A model generated the notes under the pieces. That model searched no databases. It saw nothing but the letters and a program-made list of their open reading frames with translations, and had not been told where the DNA came from. From IMG/VR virus record IMGVR_UViG_3300026116_000040, positions 1 through 64,000 of that record: 64,000 nt of DNA; one strand, written 5' to 3'. Positions 19,476-50,812 of the stretch are shown in pieces. The stretch comes from a virus. Both the position numbers and the translations under genes were made by a program. Position 1 is the first letter of the stretch, and every line of letters starts with the position of its first letter.

Positions 19476-20228
19476 TTACCCTTTGGTGATTCCGCGAACG
19501 TCTTGTGAAGTTTGTATGATCACGGGCGCTACGTTTTTACCAGATAATCTTGGAGCGATTGCTTTGTTTACATTGCTTCCGCCGTTTAGAACAGCTTTAC
19601 CAGAAAGTACAATAACTGGGTAAGCAGCAATAACAAGTGTACAAGATGCTTTCAAAGTGAAAGTGATGTATGTGTTACCATCGAAAGTCACACGTTTAGT
19701 TACATCAATTGCATCAGTTGAAAATTGGAATAAATCTTTCAACACTGACATGTTGATTGGTTTTTGGTAGTTTTGACCGTTGGCATCAACATGGTTCAAT
19801 GTTAATGTTTGAGTTAACTGAGAAGTGATGTTAGAACCACTTGCAGTGAAACGCCATTTACCAACAACGAAGTTTTTGTTGTTTGATTGGTTGATCAAAC
19901 GTCCGTATGTTCCACCTTGTAAGTTGCTTAGTACAACTGCTGTTGGGTTACCATAATTGGTAGCGCTAGAGTAGTCGTTGAAGCCCATAAATATGGCGGT
20001 AACGTCGTTTGCAGTTGTGTTTTGGTATTGGATCACATAAGGATCAGAGATGCCTTCTGCTTGTCCTGCGCCTTCTGCATAAGACATGCTATCGCCGTCA
20101 GCTAATGAAAACCCTGCGTCACCGTCGAAAGAGTTCATATCACCTTCTGCTGAATCGTAGCTATCAAAGCCACTCATTTGTTCTGTAGCGTTAATATAGC
20201 TACGTAATTCTTTTTCTGTTGAGTTCAT
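19476..20228 (-). CDS. candidate major capsid protein
   Basis: 250 residues from ATG 20228; a longer frame exists, but its extra residues come from the untranslated leader. Residues 1-70 are acidic and carry four or five A-D/E-G motifs (SAEGD, LADGD, YAEGA, QAEG), which look like a propeptide. Residues 75-240 are beta-rich and align with the second capsid candidate at 12530-13504. It has its own strong terminator and a long (about 126-base) untranslated leader, as expected for the most abundant protein. The jelly-roll fold is inferred, not shown. Confidence 0.65.
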   Translation of the reverse strand: MNSTEKELRSYINATEQMSGFDSYDSAEGDMNSFDGDAGFSLADGDSMSYAEGAGQAEGISDPYVIQYQNTTANDVTAIFMGFNDYSSATNYGNPTAVVLSNLQGGTYGRLINQSNNKNFVVGKWRFTASGSNITSQLTQTLTLNHVDANGQNYQKPINMSVLKDLFQFSTDAIDVTKRVTFDGNTYITFTLKASCTLVIAAYPVIVLSGKAVLNGGSNVNKAIAPRLSGKNVAPVIIQTSQDVRGITKG

Positions 20229-24131: not shown

Positions 24132-24250
24132 AAAATTGTAGCAGGAAACACACTCATCGCCTTTTGGCGTGGGTGTGAGGAATGCGACCTGCTAATCGCT
24201 TTTAAGTTTGTAAATATAATAATTATTTTCTGATATGTGAAATTATTTTG

Positions 24251-24258
24251 TATCTTTG
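24251..24258 (+). promoter_or_regulatory. -7 box of tnpB
   Basis: TATCTTTG (TAnnTTTG) ends four bases before the ATG of tnpB at 24263, another leaderless arrangement. Confidence 0.6.
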
Positions 24259-24262
24259 TGTT

Positions 24263-25393
24263 ATGAAGTTGACATTGAAAATAAAACTTTTGCCTACTGA
24301 TGAACAGGCTAACTTGCTTCTCGATACGATGAAGGAAGCTAACGCTGTTTGTAATGCCATATCCGATGTGGCTTGGGAGAAGCGTATTTTCAATAATTTT
24401 AAACTCCATCACGAAGTTTACCATAGCTACAAAGCAACTTTTAAACTTAGCAGTCAAATATTGGTAAGATGTATTGCAAAAGTTGCTGATGCCTACAAAC
24501 TTGACAAGAAAACTAAAAGAGAATTTAGACCACTTGGGAGCATTGGTTATGATAGCAGGATTATGACCTACAAGCCTAATGATATTGTTTCTCTTTGGGC
24601 TATTGGTGGTAGGATTAAAATACCTTTTGTATGCCATAACCGAAACTACCTTCCTTACATAAAAGGCGAAGCCGACTTGGTTTACAAGAAAGGTAAGTTT
24701 TACCTGTTTCAGACCGTTGATGTACCCGAAGAAGATGTTGTAGATGTGGAGGAGTTTATCGGAGTTGATATGGGGCTGTTGGAAATAGCAGCACTTAGTA
24801 ATGGCAAATCTTTTAATTCTAAAAAACTTAACGATTATAGAGAAAAACGACAAAAAGTAAGGAGTTCGCTTCAAAGCAAAGGTACGAAAGGCTGTAAAAA
24901 AGTCCTGAAACGATTGTCTGGCAAAGAACGAACTACGAGTACAATTATCAATCACACAATAAGCAAACAAATTGTTCAGCTTGCAAAATCCGAAGGTAAA
25001 GGAATTGCAATTGAGAACTTGAAAGGTATTAGATTTTCTGCTAATAAGAAAGGCAAAAAATTTAGAAGCAGAGTAGGAAAATGGAACTTCAATCAACTTA
25101 GAAGTTTTCTTACTTACAAGTGTTTGCTTAATGGCGTTAAATTGGTAGATGTGCCACCTGCTTATACGAGTAAGACTTGCCATAATTGTCTGCATATAGG
25201 CAATAGACAAGGCAAAAAATTTACTTGTAACAACTGCAATTCTGTGTTTGATGCTGATGAAAATGCAGCAAAGAACATAGCATTGTTGGGGATGAATGTA
25301 AACCATCCTGAAAAGCCGAGTATGTTGTACTGTCAAGTGCATTCGTTCTTAGGTTTAAAGCCTATCCCATCGCTTTTTAGCGTGGGTGGGTAG
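24263..25393 (+). CDS. tnpB: TnpB RNA-guided nuclease
   Basis: 376 residues from ATG 24263. RuvC residues are all visible: GVDMG (Asp, about residue 172), AIENLKG (Glu, about 256) and DADENAAKN (Asp, about 336). A zinc ribbon CHNC...CNNC lies between the last two. The N-terminal LKIKLLPTDEQANLL is the usual TnpB opening. TnpB proteins of this family cut DNA guided by an RNA from the element's right end and help keep the element in place. The protein seems complete, so activity is possible. Confidence 0.92.
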   Translation: MKLTLKIKLLPTDEQANLLLDTMKEANAVCNAISDVAWEKRIFNNFKLHHEVYHSYKATFKLSSQILVRCIAKVADAYKLDKKTKREFRPLGSIGYDSRIMTYKPNDIVSLWAIGGRIKIPFVCHNRNYLPYIKGEADLVYKKGKFYLFQTVDVPEEDVVDVEEFIGVDMGLLEIAALSNGKSFNSKKLNDYREKRQKVRSSLQSKGTKGCKKVLKRLSGKERTTSTIINHTISKQIVQLAKSEGKGIAIENLKGIRFSANKKGKKFRSRVGKWNFNQLRSFLTYKCLLNGVKLVDVPPAYTSKTCHNCLHIGNRQGKKFTCNNCNSVFDADENAAKNIALLGMNVNHPEKPSMLYCQVHSFLGLKPIPSLFSVGG

Positions 25394-27719: not shown

Positions 27720-28598
27720 TTATTTAGTTATTTGTGTTTGTGCGTCCTTATTACCATAATACAACATAGTGTACCTATCAACCAATTTCTTTCTGCTCTC
27801 CTCTTCACTACTTTTGTTTATCAATGCGTGTTCACGGACCTCCTTTTTATTAATTAAAAAATACTTATCACAAGCATCTTCCCACTCAGCTTTGGTGAAC
27901 GCCCCCTCTAATTTCCTTCCTCCGATTCCCATTATAAAAACAAAAAACCTTATATCCCCCTTTTCAAAACGCTGAGTAACTATAATTTGAGCTATTTTAT
28001 ATAATGGGAAATTGGGGATCTTTGACTTCGACTCGTCTACATTGTCTCCTATAAAGTGCATTCGCACCCACCGACTATTCTGGTAAATCCTGGGCTCCGC
28101 GGCGCGCGCGCTCTGATAAGAAATGAGTACATCCACCCCATAGTGCCTTAGTGAAACTAGCTTACCGATAACCGCCTCCATGTGAGACATCTGCAAAACG
28201 TATGTGTTAACATCCTCAATCACCAACAAGCAGTCGATCACATTAGAGGCTAAATATTCTAACACTGTTTTTTTTTCAGAAATACCTAATGCTTTTGCAT
28301 CTATCCTTCTACACTCAATCGTTTTTGGGTCTCTACACCATGCTCGTACATCTTTTACCGCTATACGTCTTGCATTAAAATTTGGTATACCATTTTTAGC
28401 AAACTCTTCTGGCGTGTACTCTCCGTTAGTATCATAAATCAAACACCTTCTTGCACGTACTTTTGCTTCTATATTATCTTTAACATAGTCTACGATAATA
28501 TACATATTTTGGTAGGTCTTTCCACCTCCCTGTATCGCGAGAGCTGTTTGCATCCCACACTCCCTTCCGCCTGTATTTTGTTTAGGTGCTGTCTCCAT
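27720..28598 (-). CDS. FtsK/HerA-like P-loop ATPase, probable genome-packaging ATPase
   Basis: 292 residues. Walker A region AIQGGGKTYQN (about residues 22-32), Walker B CLLVIEDVNTYV (about 127-138, acidic pair ED), then LISYQSARAAEPRIYQNSR (about 160-178), which has the Gln and Arg positions of the FtsK/HerA/Zot group sensor motifs. ATPases of this kind package DNA in membrane-containing tailless viruses such as tectiviruses; Zot-like members export filamentous phages. With no terminase in the window, a packaging role is the best inference. Confidence 0.7.
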   Translation of the reverse strand: METAPKQNTGGRECGMQTALAIQGGGKTYQNMYIIVDYVKDNIEAKVRARRCLIYDTNGEYTPEEFAKNGIPNFNARRIAVKDVRAWCRDPKTIECRRIDAKALGISEKKTVLEYLASNVIDCLLVIEDVNTYVLQMSHMEAVIGKLVSLRHYGVDVLISYQSARAAEPRIYQNSRWVRMHFIGDNVDESKSKIPNFPLYKIAQIIVTQRFEKGDIRFFVFIMGIGGRKLEGAFTKAEWEDACDKYFLINKKEVREHALINKSSEEESRKKLVDRYTMLYYGNKDAQTQITK

Positions 28599-46408: not shown

Positions 46409-46439
46409 TTTGTAATTAATAAAATTAGGTGTATATTTG
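46409..46439 (+). promoter_or_regulatory. promoter of tRNA unit A (TTTG-N19-TATATTTG)
   Basis: TTTG at 46409-46412 and TATATTTG at 46432-46439 are 19 bases apart, a full Bacteroidota promoter. The leader ATG at 46444 is four bases later. Confidence 0.8.
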
Positions 46440-46443
46440 CATC

Positions 46444-46518
46444 ATGAAAACAATAACTCTACATCAACAACCGCAGCAACGTCGCCCGAAAAGCGATAAA
46501 TGGGGTTATTGTGTTTAG
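46444..46518 (+). CDS. leader peptide A (His/Gln/Pro/Arg) of tRNA attenuator
   Basis: 24 codons, MKTIT- followed by LHQQPQQRRP and a mixed end. The codons CAT CAA CAA CCG CAG CAA CGT CGC CCG form an unbroken nine-codon run for His, Gln, Pro and Arg; the tRNAs that follow in this unit are Pro(TGG), Gln(TTG), His(GTG) and Arg(ACG). GGGGTTA at 46502-46508, near the end of the ORF, can pair with TAACCCC at 46546-46552 in the terminator's 5' arm. A ribosome that completes the ORF would mask this segment; one stalled at the nine-codon run would expose it. Confidence 0.8.
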   Translation: MKTITLHQQPQQRRPKSDKWGYCV

Positions 46519-46545
46519 GGTATTTAAACATATAAGTAAGGAAAC

Positions 46546-46577
46546 TAACCCCGACATTGATTTGTTCGGGGTTTTTA
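46546..46577 (+). terminator. attenuator terminator A
   Basis: AACCCCGA and TCGGGGTT arms with a T5 run, ending 10 bases before tRNA-Pro. Its 5' arm is complementary to bases near the end of leader A, giving a competing antiterminator. Confidence 0.85.
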
Positions 46578-46586
46578 GTTTTTATA

Positions 46587-46664
46587 TCTTGCGGTATAGG
46601 AGTCTGGTTTATCTAACCTCACTTGGAATGAGGAGTACGTGGGTTCAAATCCCACTCGCAAGAC
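46587..46664 (+). tRNA. tRNA-Pro(TGG)
   Basis: Acceptor TCTTGCG/CGCAAGA, anticodon arm CCTCA-CTTGGAA-TGAGG, T arm GTGGG-TTCAAAT-CCCAC. First tRNA of unit A; no gap to the tRNA-like segment that follows. Confidence 0.93.
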
Positions 46665-46750
46665 GAGAGAGGAGACATTGGTTCGAGTCCAATCTGCGGG
46701 GCCAAGCCCTGCGGTAGTAACATATAGGAAATACGCCTCTCGTGTTTTAC
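46665..46750 (+). other. tRNA-like segment in permuted order (3' half before 5' half)
   Basis: The segment exactly fills the space between tRNA-Pro and tRNA-Gln. Its first part reads as a tRNA 3' half: T arm ATTGG-TTCGAGT-CCAAT, then CTGCGGG-G-CCA. Its second part reads as a 5' half: CCTGCGG, T-A at positions 8-9, and a D-arm-like GTA...GG...TAC. The two acceptor strands pair (two G-T wobbles), and ACGAGAG/CTCTCGT at the outer ends pair as an anticodon-stem equivalent. This is the arrangement of a circularly permuted tRNA. Anticodon identity is unclear (GTT would fit one reading). It could also be a degenerate remnant. Confidence 0.5.
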
Positions 46751-46823
46751 TTTCGGGTCGTCTAGCGGCAGGATTTTGTGCTTTGAACACAAAGACGGTT
46801 TGGTTCGAATCCACCCCCGAAAA
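46751..46823 (+). tRNA. tRNA-Gln(TTG)
   Basis: Acceptor TTTCGGG/CCCGAAA, anticodon arm TTGTG-CTTTGAA-CACAA. Unit A. Starts directly after the permuted tRNA-like segment. Confidence 0.92.
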
Positions 46824-46825
46824 CT

Positions 46826-46895
46826 GTGTTATTAGCATATTGGTAATGTATTCGCCTGTGAAGCGAGTGAACAGGGTTCGATTCCCGATAACGTG
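46826..46895 (+). tRNA. tRNA-His(GTG)
   Basis: Anticodon loop CTGTGAA on stem TTCGC/GCGAG; acceptor GTGTTAT/ATAACGT with wobble pairs. The T stem is short (GGG/CCC). Unit A. The usual G-1:C73 feature of tRNA-His is not obvious. Confidence 0.8.
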
Positions 46896-46945
46896 GTGCA
46901 GCTACCAGAAGGGCGGGATTTTAATCACATAATAAACTTAGAAAG

Positions 46946-47344
46946 ATGAATAACCAATTAACGCTACAACTGTCAGAAGAGGTACAAAGCCCCGCCTTTT
47001 TGGTAGGTGCTGTTACCACCAGTGCTTCTGTCTATGATGAATTCGAGTGGATAAACAATAATAACTTTGCAAAGGATGCACACAAGCATACTTCATGTGA
47101 TTGGCAATTATCAAAGAATGAAATTTGGCTTGGCAATACGAGCGGAAACAAGCCCTGGGAAAAGGGAGTAGATATTCCAAAAGACTATGATCATTTTAAG
47201 ACTATTCGATTGGGCCATCAGGCATATTGCATTAAAGGTAAGCCGTTGAGTAGAGATTACTGTCTGCCTTTGATAATTGACAAATCAGAAGAGCAAGAGT
47301 ATGATAGAATTTATATGAAGAAAATGTCCGCCTATGCAAGGTAG
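46946..47344 (+). CDS. unknown protein inside tRNA unit A
   Basis: 132 residues, soluble, several Trp and Asp residues, no recognised motif. It lies between tRNA-His and tRNA-Arg(ACG) on the same strand, so it would be co-expressed with these tRNAs when the attenuator is open. A link to tRNA function is possible but unproven. Confidence 0.6.
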   Translation: MNNQLTLQLSEEVQSPAFLVGAVTTSASVYDEFEWINNNNFAKDAHKHTSCDWQLSKNEIWLGNTSGNKPWEKGVDIPKDYDHFKTIRLGHQAYCIKGKPLSRDYCLPLIIDKSEEQEYDRIYMKKMSAYAR

Positions 47345-47374
47345 CGTCCTTAGCATTGGTGGTAACACCCTTAT

Positions 47375-47446
47375 GTTTCATTAGGCTAAGGGACAAACCA
47401 TTTGGCTACGAACCAAATATTACACGTTCGAATCGTGTATGAAACA
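47375..47446 (+). tRNA. tRNA-Arg(ACG)
   Basis: Acceptor GTTTCAT/ATGAAAC, anticodon arm TTTGG-CTACGAA-CCAAA. Reads CGU and CGC after A-to-I editing, the two Arg codons used in leader A. Last tRNA of unit A. Confidence 0.92.
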
Positions 47447-47457
47447 CTTAATATTTG

Positions 47458-47530
47458 TGCGAAAGAGTGGTACCGAGCCACTATCTTCGGATTTTCAGTC
47501 CGCTGCATAGACCATCTTTGCTACTTCCGC
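47458..47530 (-). tRNA. tRNA-Phe(GAA)
   Basis: Acceptor GCGGAAG/CTTTCGC, anticodon loop CTGAAAA. The T loop (CTCGGTA) is unusual. Unit D, minus strand, convergent with unit A. Confidence 0.88.
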
Positions 47531-47535
47531 TTTTG

Positions 47536-47606
47536 CGTTCTCGAATGGAATCGAACCATTATTAGCTGATTAACAGTCAGTCGTACTACCGTTGTACTAC
47601 AAGAAC
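47536..47606 (-). tRNA. tRNA-Asn(GTT)
   Basis: Acceptor GTTCTTG/CGAGAAC, anticodon loop CTGTTAA. Unit D. Its 5' end overlaps the 3' end of the HNH gene by 10 bases. Confidence 0.92.
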
Positions 47607-48055
47607 TTTTTTATATACTCTTTATAGTACCCTAATTGGATAACAGTTTTAATTGCATGGCAATTAGCGCATAAAATTTCACATTTTCTTATTTCTGTTT
47701 TTACTGATTCAATAGAATTTCTATCTGCAATTAATGCTGCTACACTTGATATTTTACCACTATTATCCTTGTGGTCGAATTGTAAAACAAATGGATTTTT
47801 ATTTCCGCACTCTTTACAGCCACATAGTCTTTTATATCTTAAAGAAAGTTCTATTAAATATAGTCTATGATTTTTATCACATTCCTTTTTCTTGTTAACC
47901 CTTTTAAATGCCCTAGCATTACTTTTATCTTTTTGTCCTGTCCCACAATGAAAGGCTACAGTTCCTTTGGAACATTTTAATTTCCCCGAAATTTTGTTAT
48001 AAGAAAGTCCCCCCTTTCTTAATTTCAATATTTTTGCTCCAAGTCCTTTATTCAT
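47597..48055 (-). CDS. HNH homing endonuclease inserted in tRNA unit D
   Basis: 152 residues from ATG 48055. N-terminal helix-turn-helix-like part (ILKLRKGGLSYNKISGKLKCSKGTV), then a zinc-binding HNH core: CKECG, FDHKDN (about residue 100) and CANCH (about 135). Such genes spread by cutting alleles without them. It separates tRNA-Asp from tRNA-Asn and has its own -7 box (48060-48067), so it need not depend on unit D's attenuator. Confidence 0.85.
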   Translation of the reverse strand: MNKGLGAKILKLRKGGLSYNKISGKLKCSKGTVAFHCGTGQKDKSNARAFKRVNKKKECDKNHRLYLIELSLRYKRLCGCKECGNKNPFVLQFDHKDNSGKISSVAALIADRNSIESVKTEIRKCEILCANCHAIKTVIQLGYYKEYIKKFL

Positions 48056-48059
48056 ACTG

Positions 48060-48067
48060 CAAATATA
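48060..48067 (-). promoter_or_regulatory. -7 box of the HNH gene
   Basis: TATATTTG on the minus strand, four bases before the ATG at 48055. Confidence 0.65.
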
Positions 48068-48120
48068 TAAATAAAGGTTCAAATAAAAAAATGTTTTTTA
48101 AATCAATTGAACTATATTTG

Positions 48121-48194
48121 CGGGGTTAACGGAAATCGAATCCGTAATCTCTTCCGTGACAGGGAAGCGTCATGCGCCAATATGCTGTAACCCC
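48121..48194 (-). tRNA. tRNA-Asp(GTC)
   Basis: Acceptor GGGGTTA/TAACCCC, anticodon arm CTTCC-CTGTCAC-GGAAG. First tRNA of unit D, directly after terminator D. Confidence 0.93.
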
Positions 48195-48201
48195 GTAAAA
48201 C

Positions 48202-48235
48202 AAAAAACCCTCAAGCTTTTAGCTCAAGGGTTTTG
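48202..48235 (-). terminator. attenuator terminator D
   Basis: On the minus strand AAAACCCTTGAGCT and AGCTTGAGGGTTTT form a 14-bp stem (two G-U pairs) with a three-base loop and a T-run. It can also work on the plus strand. CCTTG in its 5' arm is complementary to CAAGG located three bases after the stop of leader D. Confidence 0.85.
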
Positions 48236-48258
48236 ACAATATCATTCCATGAGCCTTG

Positions 48259-48303
48259 TTAGGTTCTATTATCAAAATCGAAATTAAAATTTATTGTTTT
48301 CAT
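48259..48303 (-). CDS. leader peptide D (Asn/Phe/Asp) of tRNA attenuator
   Basis: 14 codons: MKTINFNFDFDNRT. Eight consecutive codons (AAT TTT AAT TTC GAT TTT GAT AAT) specify only Asn, Phe and Asp. The tRNAs of the unit are Asp(GTC), Asn(GTT) and Phe(GAA), and no others. The ATG is four bases after TATATTTG, so the mRNA is leaderless. Confidence 0.85.
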   Translation of the reverse strand: MKTINFNFDFDNRT

Positions 48304-48307
48304 GGTG

Positions 48308-48315
48308 CAAATATA
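48308..48315 (-). promoter_or_regulatory. -7 box of tRNA unit D
   Basis: TATATTTG on the minus strand four bases before the leader D start. The -33 region falls in the 3' end of tRNA-Arg(TCT) and has no clear TTTG. Confidence 0.65.
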
Positions 48316-48327
48316 ACTATTTTTTTG

Positions 48328-48399
48328 TCTCTGTGAAAAGAATCGAACTTTTATTTATTGTTTAGAAGACAACTGTACTATCCATTGTACGACACAGAG
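48328..48399 (-). tRNA. tRNA-Arg(TCT)
   Basis: Acceptor CTCTGTG/CACAGAG, anticodon arm GTTGT-CTTCTAA-ACAAT. Reads AGA/AGG, and leader C uses AGA as its only Arg codon. Last tRNA of unit C. Confidence 0.92.
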
Positions 48400-48407
48400 T
48401 TTATTTG

Positions 48408-48478
48408 TGTCCCTGAACAGAATCGAACTGTTGTCTTCCGGTTAAAAGCCGGAAGCTCTACCATTGAGCTACAAGGAC
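48408..48478 (-). tRNA. tRNA-Lys(TTT)
   Basis: Anticodon arm TCCGG-CTTTTAA-CCGGA; acceptor GTCCTTG/CAGGGAC. Unit C. Confidence 0.93.
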
Positions 48479-48548
48479 AAAACTTTATCTTCTCTTTCTC
48501 TTATGAGAAAAAGCAGGTTTTCGTTTTATTTTCCTTGTAGCATTCATG

Positions 48549-48619
48549 TTTCGCAAGATGGAATCGAACCACCGTAAACTGGATGTAAACCAATCACTCT
48601 ACCATTGAGATATTGCGAA
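48549..48619 (-). tRNA. tRNA-Val(TAC)
   Basis: Anticodon arm ATTGG-TTTACAT-CCAGT; acceptor TTCGCAA/TTGCGAA. Unit C. Confidence 0.92.
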
Positions 48620-48625
48620 ATAAAG

Positions 48626-48695
48626 TGGACAGCGTGGGAATCGAACCCATACAATCTGATTGCAAATCAGTTGGACTGCCGTTGTCATCGCGCCC
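48626..48695 (-). tRNA. tRNA-Ala(TGC), atypical acceptor
   Basis: Anticodon loop TTTGCAA on stem CTGA/TCAG gives TGC. The acceptor GGGCGCG/GCTGTCC has the G3-U70 pair that identifies Ala, but its last two pairs do not form. Cys(GCA) was considered and rejected because a clear tRNA-Cys is present nearby. Unit C. Confidence 0.75.
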
Positions 48696-48700
48696 ATAAT

Positions 48701-48775
48701 GTGTACCCTAAAGGGGTCGAACCTTTATCCCCTTTCTTATGAGGAAAGTGCTTTACCAATTAAGCTAAAGGAACA
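48701..48775 (-). tRNA. tRNA with CAT anticodon (Met or Ile2)
   Basis: Anticodon arm CTTTC-CTCATAA-GAAAG; acceptor TGTTCCT with one mismatch to GGGTACA. Two CAT tRNAs occur in unit C and one more at 17288; one of these may be lysidine-modified tRNA-Ile for AUA codons, which leader C contains twice. Confidence 0.85.
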
Positions 48776-48777
48776 TA

Positions 48778-48850
48778 GAGTACACAGAAAGAATCGAACT
48801 TTCTACTTTTGTTTTGCAGACAAATCTCAATCCATTTGAGTTTATGTACT
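48778..48850 (-). tRNA. tRNA-Cys(GCA)
   Basis: Anticodon arm TTTGT-CTGCAAA-ACAAA; acceptor AGTACAT/GTGTACT. Unit C. Confidence 0.9.
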
Positions 48851-48854
48851 TGTG

Positions 48855-48928
48855 AGCAGATAGCGAGAATCGAACTCGCTCTATTCCAGTTTGGAAGACT
48901 GGCGCACCACCAACTATGCGTTATCTGC
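48855..48928 (-). tRNA. tRNA-Gly(TCC)
   Basis: Anticodon arm CCAGT-CTTCCAA-ACTGG; acceptor GCAGATA/TATCTGC. Unit C. Confidence 0.93.
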
Positions 48929-48938
48929 TTATTATCGT

Positions 48939-49009
48939 ATTCGGTACGGGCATCGAACCCGTATCTGCAAAGTGAAAGTTTGCTATCCTGACCATTTAGA
49001 AGAACCGAA
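48939..49009 (-). tRNA. tRNA-Glu(TTC)
   Basis: Anticodon arm GCAAA-CTTTCAC-TTTGC; acceptor TTCGGTT/TACCGAA. Unit C. Confidence 0.92.
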
Positions 49010-49059
49010 CATTTCGTCGGTCTCCTCACTTAATCTGTTTTTCATTTTCATTTTTTAAG

Positions 49060-49132
49060 TTGGAATAAAAGGACTTGAACCTTTAGCCTTCGACGTATCA
49101 GGTCGCTGCTCCACCATTGAGCTATACTCCAA
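49060..49132 (-). tRNA. tRNA-Ile(GAT)
   Basis: Anticodon arm GCGAC-CTGATAC-GTCGA; acceptor TTGGAGT/ATTCCAA. Unit C. Confidence 0.9.
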
Positions 49133-49137
49133 TATTG

Positions 49138-49208
49138 TTGCGGAGAAGAGAATCGAACTCTTATCTGAGGCTTATGAGGCCCCCGTGCTACCGTTACACC
49201 ACCACGCA
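49138..49208 (-). tRNA. tRNA with CAT anticodon (Met-type)
   Basis: Anticodon arm GGGGC-CTCATAA-GCCTC; acceptor TGCGTGG/TCCGCA with some irregularity. The G-rich anticodon stem recalls initiator tRNA, but the acceptor end is paired T-A. Unit C. Confidence 0.87.
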
Positions 49209-49214
49209 ATTTTG

Positions 49215-49286
49215 AGCTTAGATTCGGAACTGACCCGAAAATTGATGCTTACAAGGCAACTGTTTTTCCCGTTAAACTATCCAAGC
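49215..49286 (-). tRNA. tRNA-Thr(TGT)
   Basis: Anticodon loop CTTGTAA; acceptor GCTTGGA/TCTAAGC. Unit C. Confidence 0.9.
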
Positions 49287-49290
49287 TTAA

Positions 49291-49362
49291 GCACACCCTC
49301 TTTGAATCGAACAAAGTCCTTCGGTTTTGGAGACCGATTGGCTACCATTAGCCCAAGATGCG
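49291..49362 (-). tRNA. tRNA-Trp(CCA)
   Basis: Anticodon arm TCGGT-CTCCAAA-ACCGA; acceptor CGCATCT/GGGTGTG with wobbles. First tRNA of unit C, immediately after terminator C. Confidence 0.9.
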
Positions 49363-49370
49363 TATAAAAT

Positions 49371-49396
49371 AAAAAACCCCGATTTTTGGTCGAGGC
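49371..49396 (-). terminator. attenuator terminator C
   Basis: On the minus strand CCTCGA and TCGGGG (one G-U) form the stem, followed by six T. CGGGG within the last codons of leader C (49428-49432) repeats the 3' arm and can pair with CCTCG of the 5' arm instead. Confidence 0.8.
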
Positions 49397-49424
49397 TTAC
49401 AATTTATATTTTTATAAATTTACT

Positions 49425-49517
49425 TCACCCCGTTATTTTAAATTTCTCAAACATGGCAATCCCAACACACCATTTTGTTGCGTTTGTTCTCGTGCCTATA
49501 TTTGTAATTAGTTTCAT
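49425..49517 (-). CDS. leader peptide C (mixed residues) of tRNA attenuator
   Basis: 30 codons from ATG 49517 to TGA 49425. Contains Lys, Ile, Thr, Gly, Arg(AGA), Ala, Trp, Cys, Val, Met and Glu, that is every amino acid served by the 12 tRNAs of unit C, including single Trp, Cys, Val and Glu codons. Extra residues are Asn and Phe (served by the adjoining unit D) and one Leu. It has no His, Gln, Pro, Ser, Tyr or Asp. The order TKWCVGIAMFEKF places the rare ones together. Confidence 0.8.
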   Translation of the reverse strand: MKLITNIGTRTNATKWCVGIAMFEKFKITG

Positions 49518-49546
49518 TGAAAATAGTATTGTTTTAAATATTTCGA

Positions 49547-49579
49547 CAAATATATGAATAATTGTTTTATATATCCAAA
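49547..49579 (-). promoter_or_regulatory. promoter of tRNA unit C (TTTG-N21-TATATTTG)
   Basis: On the minus strand TTTG (49576-49579) and TATATTTG (49547-49554) are 21 bases apart. It is back to back with the promoter of unit B. The untranslated leader is about 25 bases, longer than in the other three units. Confidence 0.8.
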
Positions 49580-49587
49580 TTTATTTT

Positions 49588-49595
49588 TACATTTG
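49588..49595 (+). promoter_or_regulatory. -7 box of tRNA unit B
   Basis: TACATTTG four bases before the leader B ATG at 49600. A TTG lies 23 bases upstream, slightly too far for an ideal -33 box. Confidence 0.65.
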
Positions 49596-49599
49596 TACC

Positions 49600-49668
49600 A
49601 TGAAAACACAAAAATCATATAGCCTGTCTTTAAGTTATTCGTTGAGTAAACAAGAGGCATTCTATTGA
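49600..49668 (+). CDS. leader peptide B (Ser/Tyr/Leu) of tRNA attenuator
   Basis: 22 codons containing SYSLSLSYSLS. The run uses Ser TCA, AGC, TCT, AGT, TCG, AGT, Tyr TAT twice, and Leu CTG, TTA, TTG. The unit's tRNAs are Leu(TAA), Tyr(GTA), Ser(GCT), Ser(TGA), Leu(TAG): both Ser codon families and both Leu codon families are sampled. AGAGGC (49653-49658) near the end of the ORF can pair with GCCTCT (49693-49698) in the terminator. Confidence 0.85.
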   Translation: MKTQKSYSLSLSYSLSKQEAFY

Positions 49669-49686
49669 TTATACTGAAATAGATAC

Positions 49687-49723
49687 AAAAAAGCCTCTCG
49701 AATTTAATTGGGAGGCTTTTTTT
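49687..49723 (+). terminator. attenuator terminator B
   Basis: AAAAAAGCCTC and GGAGGCTTTTTTT with a loop of about 13 bases, ending four bases before tRNA-Leu(TAA). The GCCTC arm is also complementary to GAGGC in leader B. Confidence 0.88.
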
Positions 49724-49727
49724 ATTT

Positions 49728-49801
49728 GCAGCAATGGTGAAACTGGTAAACACACAGGACTTAAAATCCTGACGCTTTGGGTTCGATTCCCAATTGCTGC
49801 A
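49728..49801 (+). tRNA. tRNA-Leu(TAA)
   Basis: Acceptor GCAGCAA/TTGCTGC, anticodon arm CAGGA-CTTAAAA-TCCTG, T arm with TTCGATT. The variable arm is short for a Leu tRNA. First tRNA of unit B. Confidence 0.9.
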
Positions 49802-49807
49802 CTAAAT

Positions 49808-49881
49808 GGGTTGTTCATTGCTAACAGGTAAGCATTCGGTCTGTAACACCGCTAATAGAGGTTCGATTCCTTTACACCCCA
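49808..49881 (+). tRNA. tRNA-Tyr(GTA) with short variable loop
   Basis: Acceptor GGGTTGT/ACACCCC (one mismatch), anticodon loop CTGTAAC, T loop TTCGATT. The variable loop is only about six bases, whereas bacterial tRNA-Tyr normally has a long variable arm. Unit B. Confidence 0.85.
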
Positions 49882-49884
49882 CAT

Positions 49885-49974
49885 ACGGAAGATTAAACAG
49901 AAAGGCTCTGTAACCGCCTGCTAAGCGAGTTGTCCTGTAAAAAGGGATGGATTTCGAATATTCAGTCTTCCGTT
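49885..49974 (+). tRNA. tRNA-Ser(GCT)
   Basis: Acceptor ACGGAAG/CTTCCGT, anticodon loop CTGCTAA, long variable arm (TCC...GGA). Unit B. Confidence 0.87.
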
Positions 49975-49975
49975 T

Positions 49976-50069
49976 GGAAAGTAAAGCAGCTACATTGGAG
50001 TGGCGACTAGTCTTGAAAACTAGGTATCGGCGTAAAAAACTGATTGGAGGTCGGGTCTTCTGCTTTCCG
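49976..50069 (+). tRNA. tRNA-Ser(TGA)
   Basis: Acceptor GGAAAGT/GCTTTCC, anticodon arm CTAGT-CTTGAAA-ACTAG, long variable arm. The T loop (GTCGGGT) is unusual. Unit B. Confidence 0.87.
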
Positions 50070-50074
50070 CAAAT

Positions 50075-50148
50075 GCCCAATTGGCGAAATTGGTAAACGC
50101 GCTACTCTTAGAAAGTAGATTTTACAGGTTCGACTCCTGTATTGGGCA
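50075..50148 (+). tRNA. tRNA-Leu(TAG)
   Basis: Acceptor GCCCAAT/ATTGGGC, anticodon arm CTACT-CTTAGAA-AGTAG. Last tRNA of unit B. Its 3' half is antisense to the end of the glycosyltransferase gene at 50108-50812. Confidence 0.93.
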
Positions 50149-50812
50149 CAATTATAGCGTTCTTGTCCAACCCTTTAAATTTGTCATTTATCGTCTTCCT
50201 TTGGACATCAACATACTCTACACCCCATTGGTATGTCTTGTTTATTTTGCTCAGTCTTTTTTCATACATCTTATGCCGGCTGTAAACATAGTCGGGAGAA
50301 ATGTACTTATAATGTAGTAATGGAACGGTGAATGGACTGTAAATAATATTACCAATAGGATTTGCGGTATGGCAACCTGGCAAATAATTTATTTCTTGGA
50401 TTTGATTGGGTCTAAAAAAACAAAGTTTGCTATACATTGAGTTAGGAACGCCCAAACGCGAAGGTGGCGGACCAATCATATCGTAGCCTTTCGTTTTTAC
50501 GATGGATGTATTTTTTAAGTCGGCGTTTACCGGCAACTCTAAAAATTCATCAATGTCAACTACGCACACCCAGTCCGCTTTGCTTTTCTTCCAACAGCTG
50601 TTTTTTATTTTAAGATACAAATCATCCCGTATTTCATCTTGTGAATTATAATCGATCAGCGTGCATCCAGCAGCATTTATTATTTCACGGGAATTGTCGA
50701 TAGACCGGTTATCGAAAATGGTGATGTTGGCCCCCATAGATTGATAATGCTTTATGAAGTGGGGCAGTAAGAACGCTTCATTGTAACAGATACTAAATAC
50801 GTCGATGTTCAT
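50108..50812 (-). CDS. GT2-like glycosyltransferase (DUF23/Glyco_tranf_2_4 type)
   Basis: 234 residues. VFSICYNEAFLLPHFIKHYQSMGANITIFDNRSID is the typical opening, and WVCVVDIDEFLELP (about residue 82) the DxD site with the E-F/L motif of this group. Late HYKYIS matches the H-y-x-x-x-x region. The last 13 residues are encoded on the strand opposite tRNA-Leu(TAG), so the gene may have been cut short by the tRNA region. Confidence 0.75.
   Translation of the reverse strand: MNIDVFSICYNEAFLLPHFIKHYQSMGANITIFDNRSIDNSREIINAAGCTLIDYNSQDEIRDDLYLKIKNSCWKKSKADWVCVVDIDEFLELPVNADLKNTSIVKTKGYDMIGPPPSRLGVPNSMYSKLCFFRPNQIQEINYLPGCHTANPIGNIIYSPFTVPLLHYKYISPDYVYSRHKMYEKRLSKINKTYQWGVEYVDVQRKTINDKFKGLDKNAIIVPNTGVEPVKSTF

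Follow-up and report, generated by a model that had tools for sequence, protein, structure and literature searches.

The four tRNA units of the window, i.e. the whole stretch of DNA analysed here (64,000 nucleotides, positions 1 to 64,000 of the 65-kb IMG/VR virus record IMGVR_UViG_3300026116_000040), are each read as a leader-peptide transcription attenuator with a set of tRNAs as its output, a reading to which a probability of about 0.9 is assigned from the sequence. It is drawn from the parts present, the matching of leader codons to the tRNAs, their covariation, the geometry and the predicted mutually exclusive pairing. The class of switch, leader-peptide attenuation, is known, while tRNA genes as its output are new. 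Many Bacteroidota-type viruses appear to restrict the making of their own tRNAs to times of shortage of the matching ones, which bears on the long-standing question of why phages carry tRNAs and when these are expressed.

The units encode 24 tRNAs covering all 20 amino acids, and each follows the order promoter, ORF of 14–30 codons, intrinsic terminator and tRNAs (Table 1). All four leader-preceded units placed at 46409–50148 by the initial annotation are present there, and leader C was rightly described as containing all the amino acids served by its 12 tRNAs and as lacking His, Gln, Pro, Ser, Tyr and Asp. The proposed promoter TAnnTTTG is exact in units A, B and D, but the box of unit C is weak (TACTATTT, 4/6 positions), and, as a correction, the tRNA runs of units A and D are each broken by an ORF, the latter an HNH-like gene. 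Sites of the form TAnnTTTG-N4-ATG are observed 9 times in the window versus 1.5 expected. The Tyr, both Ser, the Ala and the Cys tRNAs are weaker and were detected at relaxed ARAGORN or Rfam scores. For a putative virion protein encoded elsewhere in the window (19476-20222), the structure prediction has a pLDDT of 32.

Table 1. Features of the four tRNA units in the window.
Unit	Feature	Position	Strand	Remarks
A	-7 promoter box TATATTTG	46432..46439	+	pattern match; TTTG at 46409-46412
A	leader MKTITLHQQPQQRRPKSDKWGYCV	46444..46518	+	cognate codons His, Gln, Pro, Arg(CGN)
A	antiterminator 5′ arm TGGGGTTA, within leader	46501..46508	+	predicted pairing with terminator 5′ arm, -10.6 kcal/mol; shuffle p 0.075 (unit A alone)
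A	intrinsic terminator (AACCCCGA ... TCGGGGTT TTTAG)	46546..46580	+	
A	tRNAs, span	46588..47447	+	Pro(TGG) 46588-46663, Gln(TTG) 46751-46823, His(GTG) 46824-46897, Arg(ACG) 47375-47447
A	132-aa ORF ahead of tRNA-Arg	46946-47344	+	
B	-7 box TACATTTG	49588..49595	+	pattern match
B	leader MKTQKSYSLSLSYSLSKQEAFY	49600..49668	+	cognate codons Ser (TCN + AGY), Leu (TTR + CTN), Tyr
B	antiterminator 5′ arm AAGAGGCA, within leader	49652..49659	+	-10.9 kcal/mol, p 0.02
B	intrinsic terminator (GCCTCTC ... GGGAGGC TTTTTTT)	49687..49726	+	
B	tRNAs, span	49728..50149	+	Leu(TAA) 49728-49802, Tyr(GTA) from 49808, Ser(GCT), Ser(TGA), Leu(TAG) 50075-50149
C	leader MKLITNIGTRTNATKWCVGIAMFEKFKITG	49425..49517	-	all amino acids of its 12 tRNAs; Arg = AGA
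C	candidate antiterminator 5′ arm CGGGGT, directly before leader stop	49427..49432	-	by eye; pairs with GCCTCG of terminator 5′ arm; outside the set tested against shuffles
C	intrinsic terminator	49374..49398	-	
C	tRNAs, span	48327..49361	-	Trp, Thr, Met, Ile, Glu, Gly, Cys, Met, Ala(TGC) 48695-48626, Val, Lys, Arg(TCT)
D	-7 box TATATTTG	48308..48315	-	pattern match
D	leader MKTINFNFDFDNRT	48259..48303	-	cognate codons Asn, Phe, Asp
D	antiterminator 5′ arm AGGCTCATGGA, directly after leader stop	48246..48257	-	-11.8 kcal/mol, p 0.005
D	intrinsic terminator, 14-bp stem	48204..48234	-	
D	tRNAs	47457..48194	-	Asp 48194-48120, Asn 47606-47535, Phe 47530-47457
D	HNH-like ORF, between tRNA-Asp and tRNA-Asn	ATG 48053	-	

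A homologue search with the kinase/DUF6496 protein of the window returned short domain matches only, and the query with an ATPase-like protein gave one relative, whose 50.8-kb record has a single weak tRNA match. Since protein queries yielded few usable homologues, pattern scans were employed instead, in which loci were picked by promoter, ATG (mostly ATGAAA) and tRNA T-arm and leader codons were ignored. The arrangement was found in dozens of phage contigs, the scans giving 73 units, of which 58 are left after 70% dereplication; an intrinsic terminator lies between leader and tRNAs in nearly all matching units of the unfiltered listing. Later scans without the demand for an MK start produced new units, for instance MFNLLSYYSSSLLLHRQAGYSM ahead of Leu, Leu, Ser and Tyr tRNAs and MNYKTLHAQQPQRLRISEGWGYCV ahead of Pro and Gln tRNAs, and thereby rule out that the result depends on this start. 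The leader-terminator-tRNA arrangement is also present in the cultured Cellulophaga phages phi4:1, phi38:1 and phi10:1, which makes the leader hypothesis immediately testable.

In the combined set of 63 units (scan units, isolates and window) the leaders cover 97.5% of the amino acids carried by the tRNAs of the same unit, compared with 62.2 ± 3.1% upon permutation (10,000 permutations, maximum 73.1%). Coverage is unchanged for the 52 units left at 50% dereplication, falls to 50% and 56% in the +1 and +2 reading frames, respectively, and is reached in none of 5,000 trials when permutation is confined to each module type. Glu occurs in 14/14 leaders with a downstream tRNA-Glu versus 3/37 without, and the corresponding fractions are 9/10 versus 1/41 for Trp, 9/9 versus 5/42 for Cys and 26/27 versus 3/24 for Pro. 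Even among near-identical leaders, codons for Glu, Arg, Phe and Cys come and go with the matching tRNA: MKTIKNN-IERLPQH is found with tRNA-Glu, IQHLPQR without it and IQHLPQH where tRNA-Arg is missing, and SLYLSFCYS is present together with Phe and Cys tRNAs where SLYLSLSYS is found in their absence. Between units, codon order and leader sequence differ while the content is kept. The few tRNAs lacking a leader match include Asp in one unit (L338) and Met in some others, and several of the mismatches arise because the reading ran past the end of the unit. The covariation of leaders with tRNA content, for which a check across phages had been advised, is thus found, and the proposal survived a comparison directed at relatives with the same tRNAs behind unrelated leaders, named beforehand as the evidence that would speak against it.

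The choice of Arg codons follows the isoacceptor, with 24 CGN versus 1 AGR codons in units encoding the ACG tRNA and 0 versus 5 in those encoding the TCT tRNA (Fisher p 4e-5), which points to sensing of the tRNA and not of the amino acid. For the Leu and Ser isoacceptor classes no significant codon match was detected in the 63-unit set.

Pairing between the 3′ end of the leader and the terminator 5′ arm is predicted at a mean of -10.4 kcal/mol versus -6.5 kcal/mol for shuffled sequences (combined p 7e-25), 54% of the single antiterminators having p < 0.05. At the median, the leader arm starts 20 nt and ends 10 nt ahead of the stop codon's last base. Between -13 and -3 codons relative to this arm, cognate codons show an excess of +0.2 to +0.5, and they are not enriched within it, as required for attenuation by a stalled ribosome. 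With a ribosome placed upstream, the nascent RNA folds into the antiterminator in 57/57 units according to fold prediction. The alternative folds called for by the initial annotation accordingly comprise a competing antiterminator, predicted to be free if the ribosome stalls and masked if it finishes, and the earlier proposal that leader-peptide attenuation governs tRNA output is supported by this placement together with the covariation. Signs of a protecting or pause hairpin (1:2), which would hold an untranslated leader shut, are weak (mean z -0.8, with z below -1 in 37%), though one is visible in the folds of units A and B, so that a leader without translation may or may not stay off.

The leader ATG is located 4 nt past the -7 box and the mRNA is therefore probably leaderless. 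In Flavobacterium psychrophilum the sigma-A box TAnnTTTG spans -12 to -5 (PMC9723704), which would put the ATG at +1; leaderless mRNAs account for only 5.5% in that organism (PMC9723704).

In the proposed mechanism, transcription would begin at the leader ATG or a few bases off, and the nearly leaderless mRNA would permit immediate ribosome loading. The ribosome would read some 10–12 codons that jointly require every tRNA encoded downstream. If all of these are charged and plentiful, it would arrive at the stop codon and cover the last leader codons, upon which the terminator hairpin would form and the tRNA genes would stay untranscribed. Scarcity of any one tRNA would stall the ribosome 3–13 codons ahead of the end segment, which, being free, would form the antiterminator with the terminator 5′ arm and let the polymerase read into the tRNA module. 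The phage would in this manner test translation and, for each module separately, replace on demand those tRNAs that are missing, each leader listing in the genome the shortage to be expected. We infer stalling and read-through, with loss of tRNA and not amino-acid starvation as the natural trigger; depletion is favoured by the way in which Arg codons match the isoacceptor and by the nature of the output, tRNA itself. Host nucleases, shut-off and host tRNA turnover are possible sources of such loss.

Amino-acid starvation, i.e. uncharged tRNA, could serve as the signal for the same attenuator and tune tRNA supply to nutrition. Classical attenuators indeed sense charging, a stalled ribosome is blind to the difference between an uncharged and an absent tRNA, and Leu and Ser codons lack isoacceptor specificity, but extra tRNA would not relieve starvation, the sampling of up to 11 amino acids by one leader is unlike a nutritional sensor and the Arg codons do discriminate; this signal is considered unlikely. 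Distinctly improbable is an infection clock, in which the units open on globally slowed or uncoupled translation and the codon match sets merely their sensitivity, as such a device has no need for leaders holding every tRNA of their own module, nor for codon loss alongside tRNA loss. In its favour, the host's tRNA supply probably declines during late infection, and an untranslated leader may be read through where a strong protecting hairpin is missing.

The sign of the switch is unprovable from sequence, and stalling might in principle favour termination and shut off tRNA synthesis under tRNA scarcity. A stall at the cognate codons, however, would leave the downstream antiterminator arm free, in agreement with the uniform fold predictions, and the reverse logic is very improbable. 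It is scarcely credible that the short ORFs encode small functional proteins or arose by chance and match the tRNAs by composition or shared ancestry: the leaders are short, phage intergenic DNA is AT-rich and two common module types recur (Pro-containing and Tyr/Ser-containing), but dereplication has no effect and content stays constant while order and sequence vary. Chance or composition is ruled out by the frame and permutation controls, and an artefact of the two module types by the within-type permutation. 

For the attenuator with tRNA output, it is likely that the units represent a widespread class in Bacteroidota phages, each tRNA module carrying its own translation-based shortage sensor, a protein-free counter-defence device that would make codon-specific replacements, on demand, for tRNAs which host defence or shut-off has destroyed.

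Amino-acid operon attenuators of the trp, his, leu, thr and pheA type likewise combine a short ORF rich in regulatory codons with an intrinsic terminator, a competing antiterminator and stalled-ribosome geometry, and the window leaders give weak, sub-threshold Rfam matches to the Phe, Trp, His and Thr leader families. Whereas the output there consists of enzymes, here it is tRNA genes, with 3–11 amino acids per leader, and the units are phage-borne and start nearly leaderless. The regulated genes of the units are tRNAs and not biosynthesis or synthetase genes. Indications of leader-peptide attenuation ahead of operons for amino-acid biosynthesis exist in F. psychrophilum (PMC9723704), which belongs to the host phylum suggested by the phage promoter type; these operons are chromosomal. 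T-box riboswitches also sense the state of tRNA and control a terminator, whereas in the phage units a translated leader ORF would be the sensor; a T-box is ruled out, since the region gave no match with E values of up to 10 allowed. In the gut phages crAss001 and DAC15 (Steigviridae), Bacteroides phages with likewise large tRNA arrays, no leader ORF accompanied by a terminator was found ahead of the array. In the open literature, outside of which lie most subscription journals and preprints, no earlier report of leader-peptide attenuation with tRNA as output was found.

Phage tRNAs oppose tRNA-cleaving defences such as retron Eco7/PtuAB, PrrC and PARIS (PMC11555353, PMC12409363), with the same presumed benefit, namely replacement of tRNA after its destruction by the host. 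A strong phage promoter served in the retron study, the text of which mentions neither attenuation nor a leader peptide; control by sensing of demand is not part of these systems. According to the present units, phages may express tRNAs conditionally and in a tRNA-specific manner. This connects phage tRNA expression with the numerous tRNA-cleaving defences discovered recently, and the units would provide a natural set of multi-codon sensors of tRNA shortage. 'Hypothetical proteins' annotated directly ahead of phage tRNAs can be leader peptides. Among the matches listed for bacterial genome contigs, at least one unit is convincing, namely L403 from a Chitinophagaceae MAG.

The tRNA island of the window, which covers 64,000 of the 65,148 bases of the IMG/VR virus record, carries 24 tRNAs representing all 20 amino acids. 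Its four units, two per strand (A, B and C, D), show the layout described in the initial annotation, namely a promoter-like box, a short ORF (the leader), a terminator hairpin with T run and the tRNAs, with 60-70 nt between leader stop and first tRNA. The TAnnTTTG box proposed for every unit is exact in A, B and D and weak in C.

Viral contigs were scanned with the promoter plus ATGAAAACA and also with the promoter, ATGAAA and, at a defined spacing, a tRNA T-arm; the latter pattern was applied once to bacterial genomes, with results among the matches listed. The patterns are free of leader codon content past the first few codons. At least 73 leader-terminator-tRNA units were obtained (at least 58 once leaders more than 70% alike were removed), such as MKFNTQPNNTFNYSIKAIGTIVR upstream of Pro Thr Asn Phe Gln, MQNKSLSLLSLSYSLEEDWGY of Leu Leu Leu Tyr Glu, MKTQNQYEHFFNYSSNRTRIGI of Glu Tyr Gln Phe His and MKMISYCLLTLSYTAM of Leu Leu Thr Cys Ser Tyr. 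The match between leader codons and own tRNAs holds across 63 units: 97.5% of the tRNA amino acids are present in the leaders, versus 62.2 +/- 3.1% (maximum 73.1%, 10,000 trials) in permuted leaders. Coverage falls to 50% and 56% in out-of-frame readings. Permutation within the Pro-containing or Pro-less class never attained the observed coverage (5,000 trials). Two later scans no longer requiring AAA after ATG yielded eight more loci with at least two tRNA types (one pair identical), with complete coverage in seven and 80% in one. Across many loci, the tRNAs of a module tend to read codons that share their first base, with Pro, Gln, His, Arg-ACG and Leu-TAG in the C group and Tyr, Ser, Phe, Trp, Cys and Leu-TAA in the T group.

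As anticipated for homologous phages, leader codons covary with tRNA content, same-family leaders diverging where their tRNA sets diverge. MKTIKNN-IQHLPQR stands upstream of Pro Gln His Arg, while the endings -IERLPQH and -IQRLPEH, with the Glu codon at different positions, precede sets including Glu; MKKIKNN-IQHLPQH has neither Arg codon nor tRNA-Arg. Likewise, SLYLSFCYS is paired with Phe and Cys tRNAs, which are missing behind SLYLSLSYS and SLYLSLSLS, and SLYLSFCDS precedes a unit including Asp. One exception is locus L258, where a leader with a Glu codon (position 15) precedes a unit lacking tRNA-Glu. Arg codon class tracks the isoacceptor (24 CGN vs 1 AGR with anticodon ACG, 0 vs 5 with TCT; Fisher p 4e-5); for Leu and Ser no significant isoacceptor preference was found in the units. 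In L481, a relative from the L241 contig, the four-unit island is kept in order and orientation with likeness in patches only (77-89%). Instead of unrelated leaders before the same tRNAs, the case initially named as speaking against such control, its leaders are rewritten in sequence yet keep their content (MNYTTLHQQQPQQLRPQSVAWGYCM, MKTLISNFNFDNDKP, MKKHNLYSLLSSYSLTTKGYCII, MKTQNIISATWTKAVKGCGMSFIAERPTIIWGGTIGF).

Alternative folds, proposed at the outset as a check, comprise an antiterminator competing for the terminator 5' arm. In most units the final leader codons are complementary to this arm (GGAGGT with ACCTCC in L121, GAGGAT with ATCCTC in L107, GGGGTTA with TAACCCC in unit A), the mean pairing energy being -10.4 kcal/mol vs -6.5 for dinucleotide shuffles (57 units; combined p 7e-25). 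The antiterminator arm lies 20 to 10 nt upstream of the stop codon end. Aligned on it, cognate codons are enriched at -13 to -3 codons (excess +0.2 to +0.5) and not from -2 onward; the last useful codon thus precedes the arm by about 6-9 nt, a distance that agrees with how far a ribosome's footprint extends downstream. With the ribosome placed upstream, the antiterminator forms in the nascent RNA of 57/57 units; this is not independent evidence because the arm was preselected by pairing. A protecting hairpin is visible in the folds of A and B and weak across units overall.

These sequence features would best be accounted for by transcription attenuation through ribosome stalling, with tRNA as output; any scarce tRNA of a module would turn that module on, giving negative feedback. 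As natural signal, tRNA shortage seems more likely to us than amino-acid starvation, since the units put out tRNA and their leaders respect the Arg isoacceptors. Some host tRNA-cleaving defences are known to be overcome by phage tRNAs (PMC11555353, PMC12409363), and the leader-controlled units may be linked to such defences. Leader-peptide attenuation is an old class of switch, clues for which precede amino-acid biosynthesis operons in flavobacteria (PMC9723704), whereas the phage units would control tRNA genes. This output and the phage setting appear new: in line with the initial annotation, the literature searched, incomplete in coverage and thus leaving priority unproven, gave no report of attenuation controlling tRNA genes or in phages.

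In Flavobacterium the TAnnTTTG box spans -12 to -5 (PMC9723704); with a 4-nt box-ATG spacer, +1 would therefore be the A of ATG, and the leader mRNAs should be leaderless. This spacing, partly a search criterion, is seen also in units found without it. Leaderless mRNAs are rare in these bacteria (5.5% in Flavobacterium, PMC9723704; about 3.7% of 5' UTRs below 10 nt in B. thetaiotaomicron, PMC7366714).

The arrangement occurs in the cultured Cellulophaga baltica phages phi4:1 (NC_021788), phi38:1 (NC_021796) and phi10:1 (NC_021802). The phi38:1 leader MKTIMNIATDIRTKGVKLLGRSRVL, annotated inside hypothetical protein gp066, is followed by Lys Ile Gly Met Asp Thr Val Arg(TCT) Ile; its Ile codons ATT and ATA correspond to the two Ile tRNAs, and its Arg codon is AGA. 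In the gut phages crAss001 and DAC15, leaders of this kind are absent from the long tRNA arrays, and the feature is thus lineage-specific. The L403 unit, found in a bacterial assembly, possibly reflects chromosomal use or a prophage remnant.

Coordinates of features in the window and in other contigs
Feature	Location	Strand	Remarks
Many small proteins	window 1-31000		C-terminal membrane segment, basic tail
TnpB/OrfB-like protein	window 24248-25393	+	Pfam Cas12f1-like TNB
ATPase-like protein	window 27720-28598		one relative in viral collection
Four tRNA units	window 46.4-50.15 kb	
Permuted tRNA-like fold	window 46664-46750		87 nt long, flanked by tRNA-Pro and tRNA-Gln
HNH-type nuclease gene	window 47597-48053	-	within tRNA island
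HNH-type nuclease gene	L481 6656-7087	-	within tRNA island
tmRNA match	L241 1149-1483	-	67.8 bits, adjoining tRNA island of the window's relative
Leader MKIGLSFSSSFSWSCTKRFSM, terminator, single tRNA-Phe	L403 85-285	+	Chitinophagaceae MAG contig, among the matches listed

The HNH-type genes are inserted at different island sites in the window and L481, which suggests tRNA-associated homing; that of the window has its own promoter of the leaderless type. The permuted tRNA-like segment folds in the order anticodon-stem 3' part, T-arm, acceptor 3' strand with CCA, acceptor 5' strand, D-arm-like part and anticodon-stem 5' part, its anticodon varying with the assumed joining of ends; alternatively, it may be no more than a fusion between halves of two tandem tRNAs that have decayed. 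Ten proteins of the window that were compared with PHROG had no match there. The TnpB/OrfB-like gene has a TAnnTTTG-N4-ATG start.
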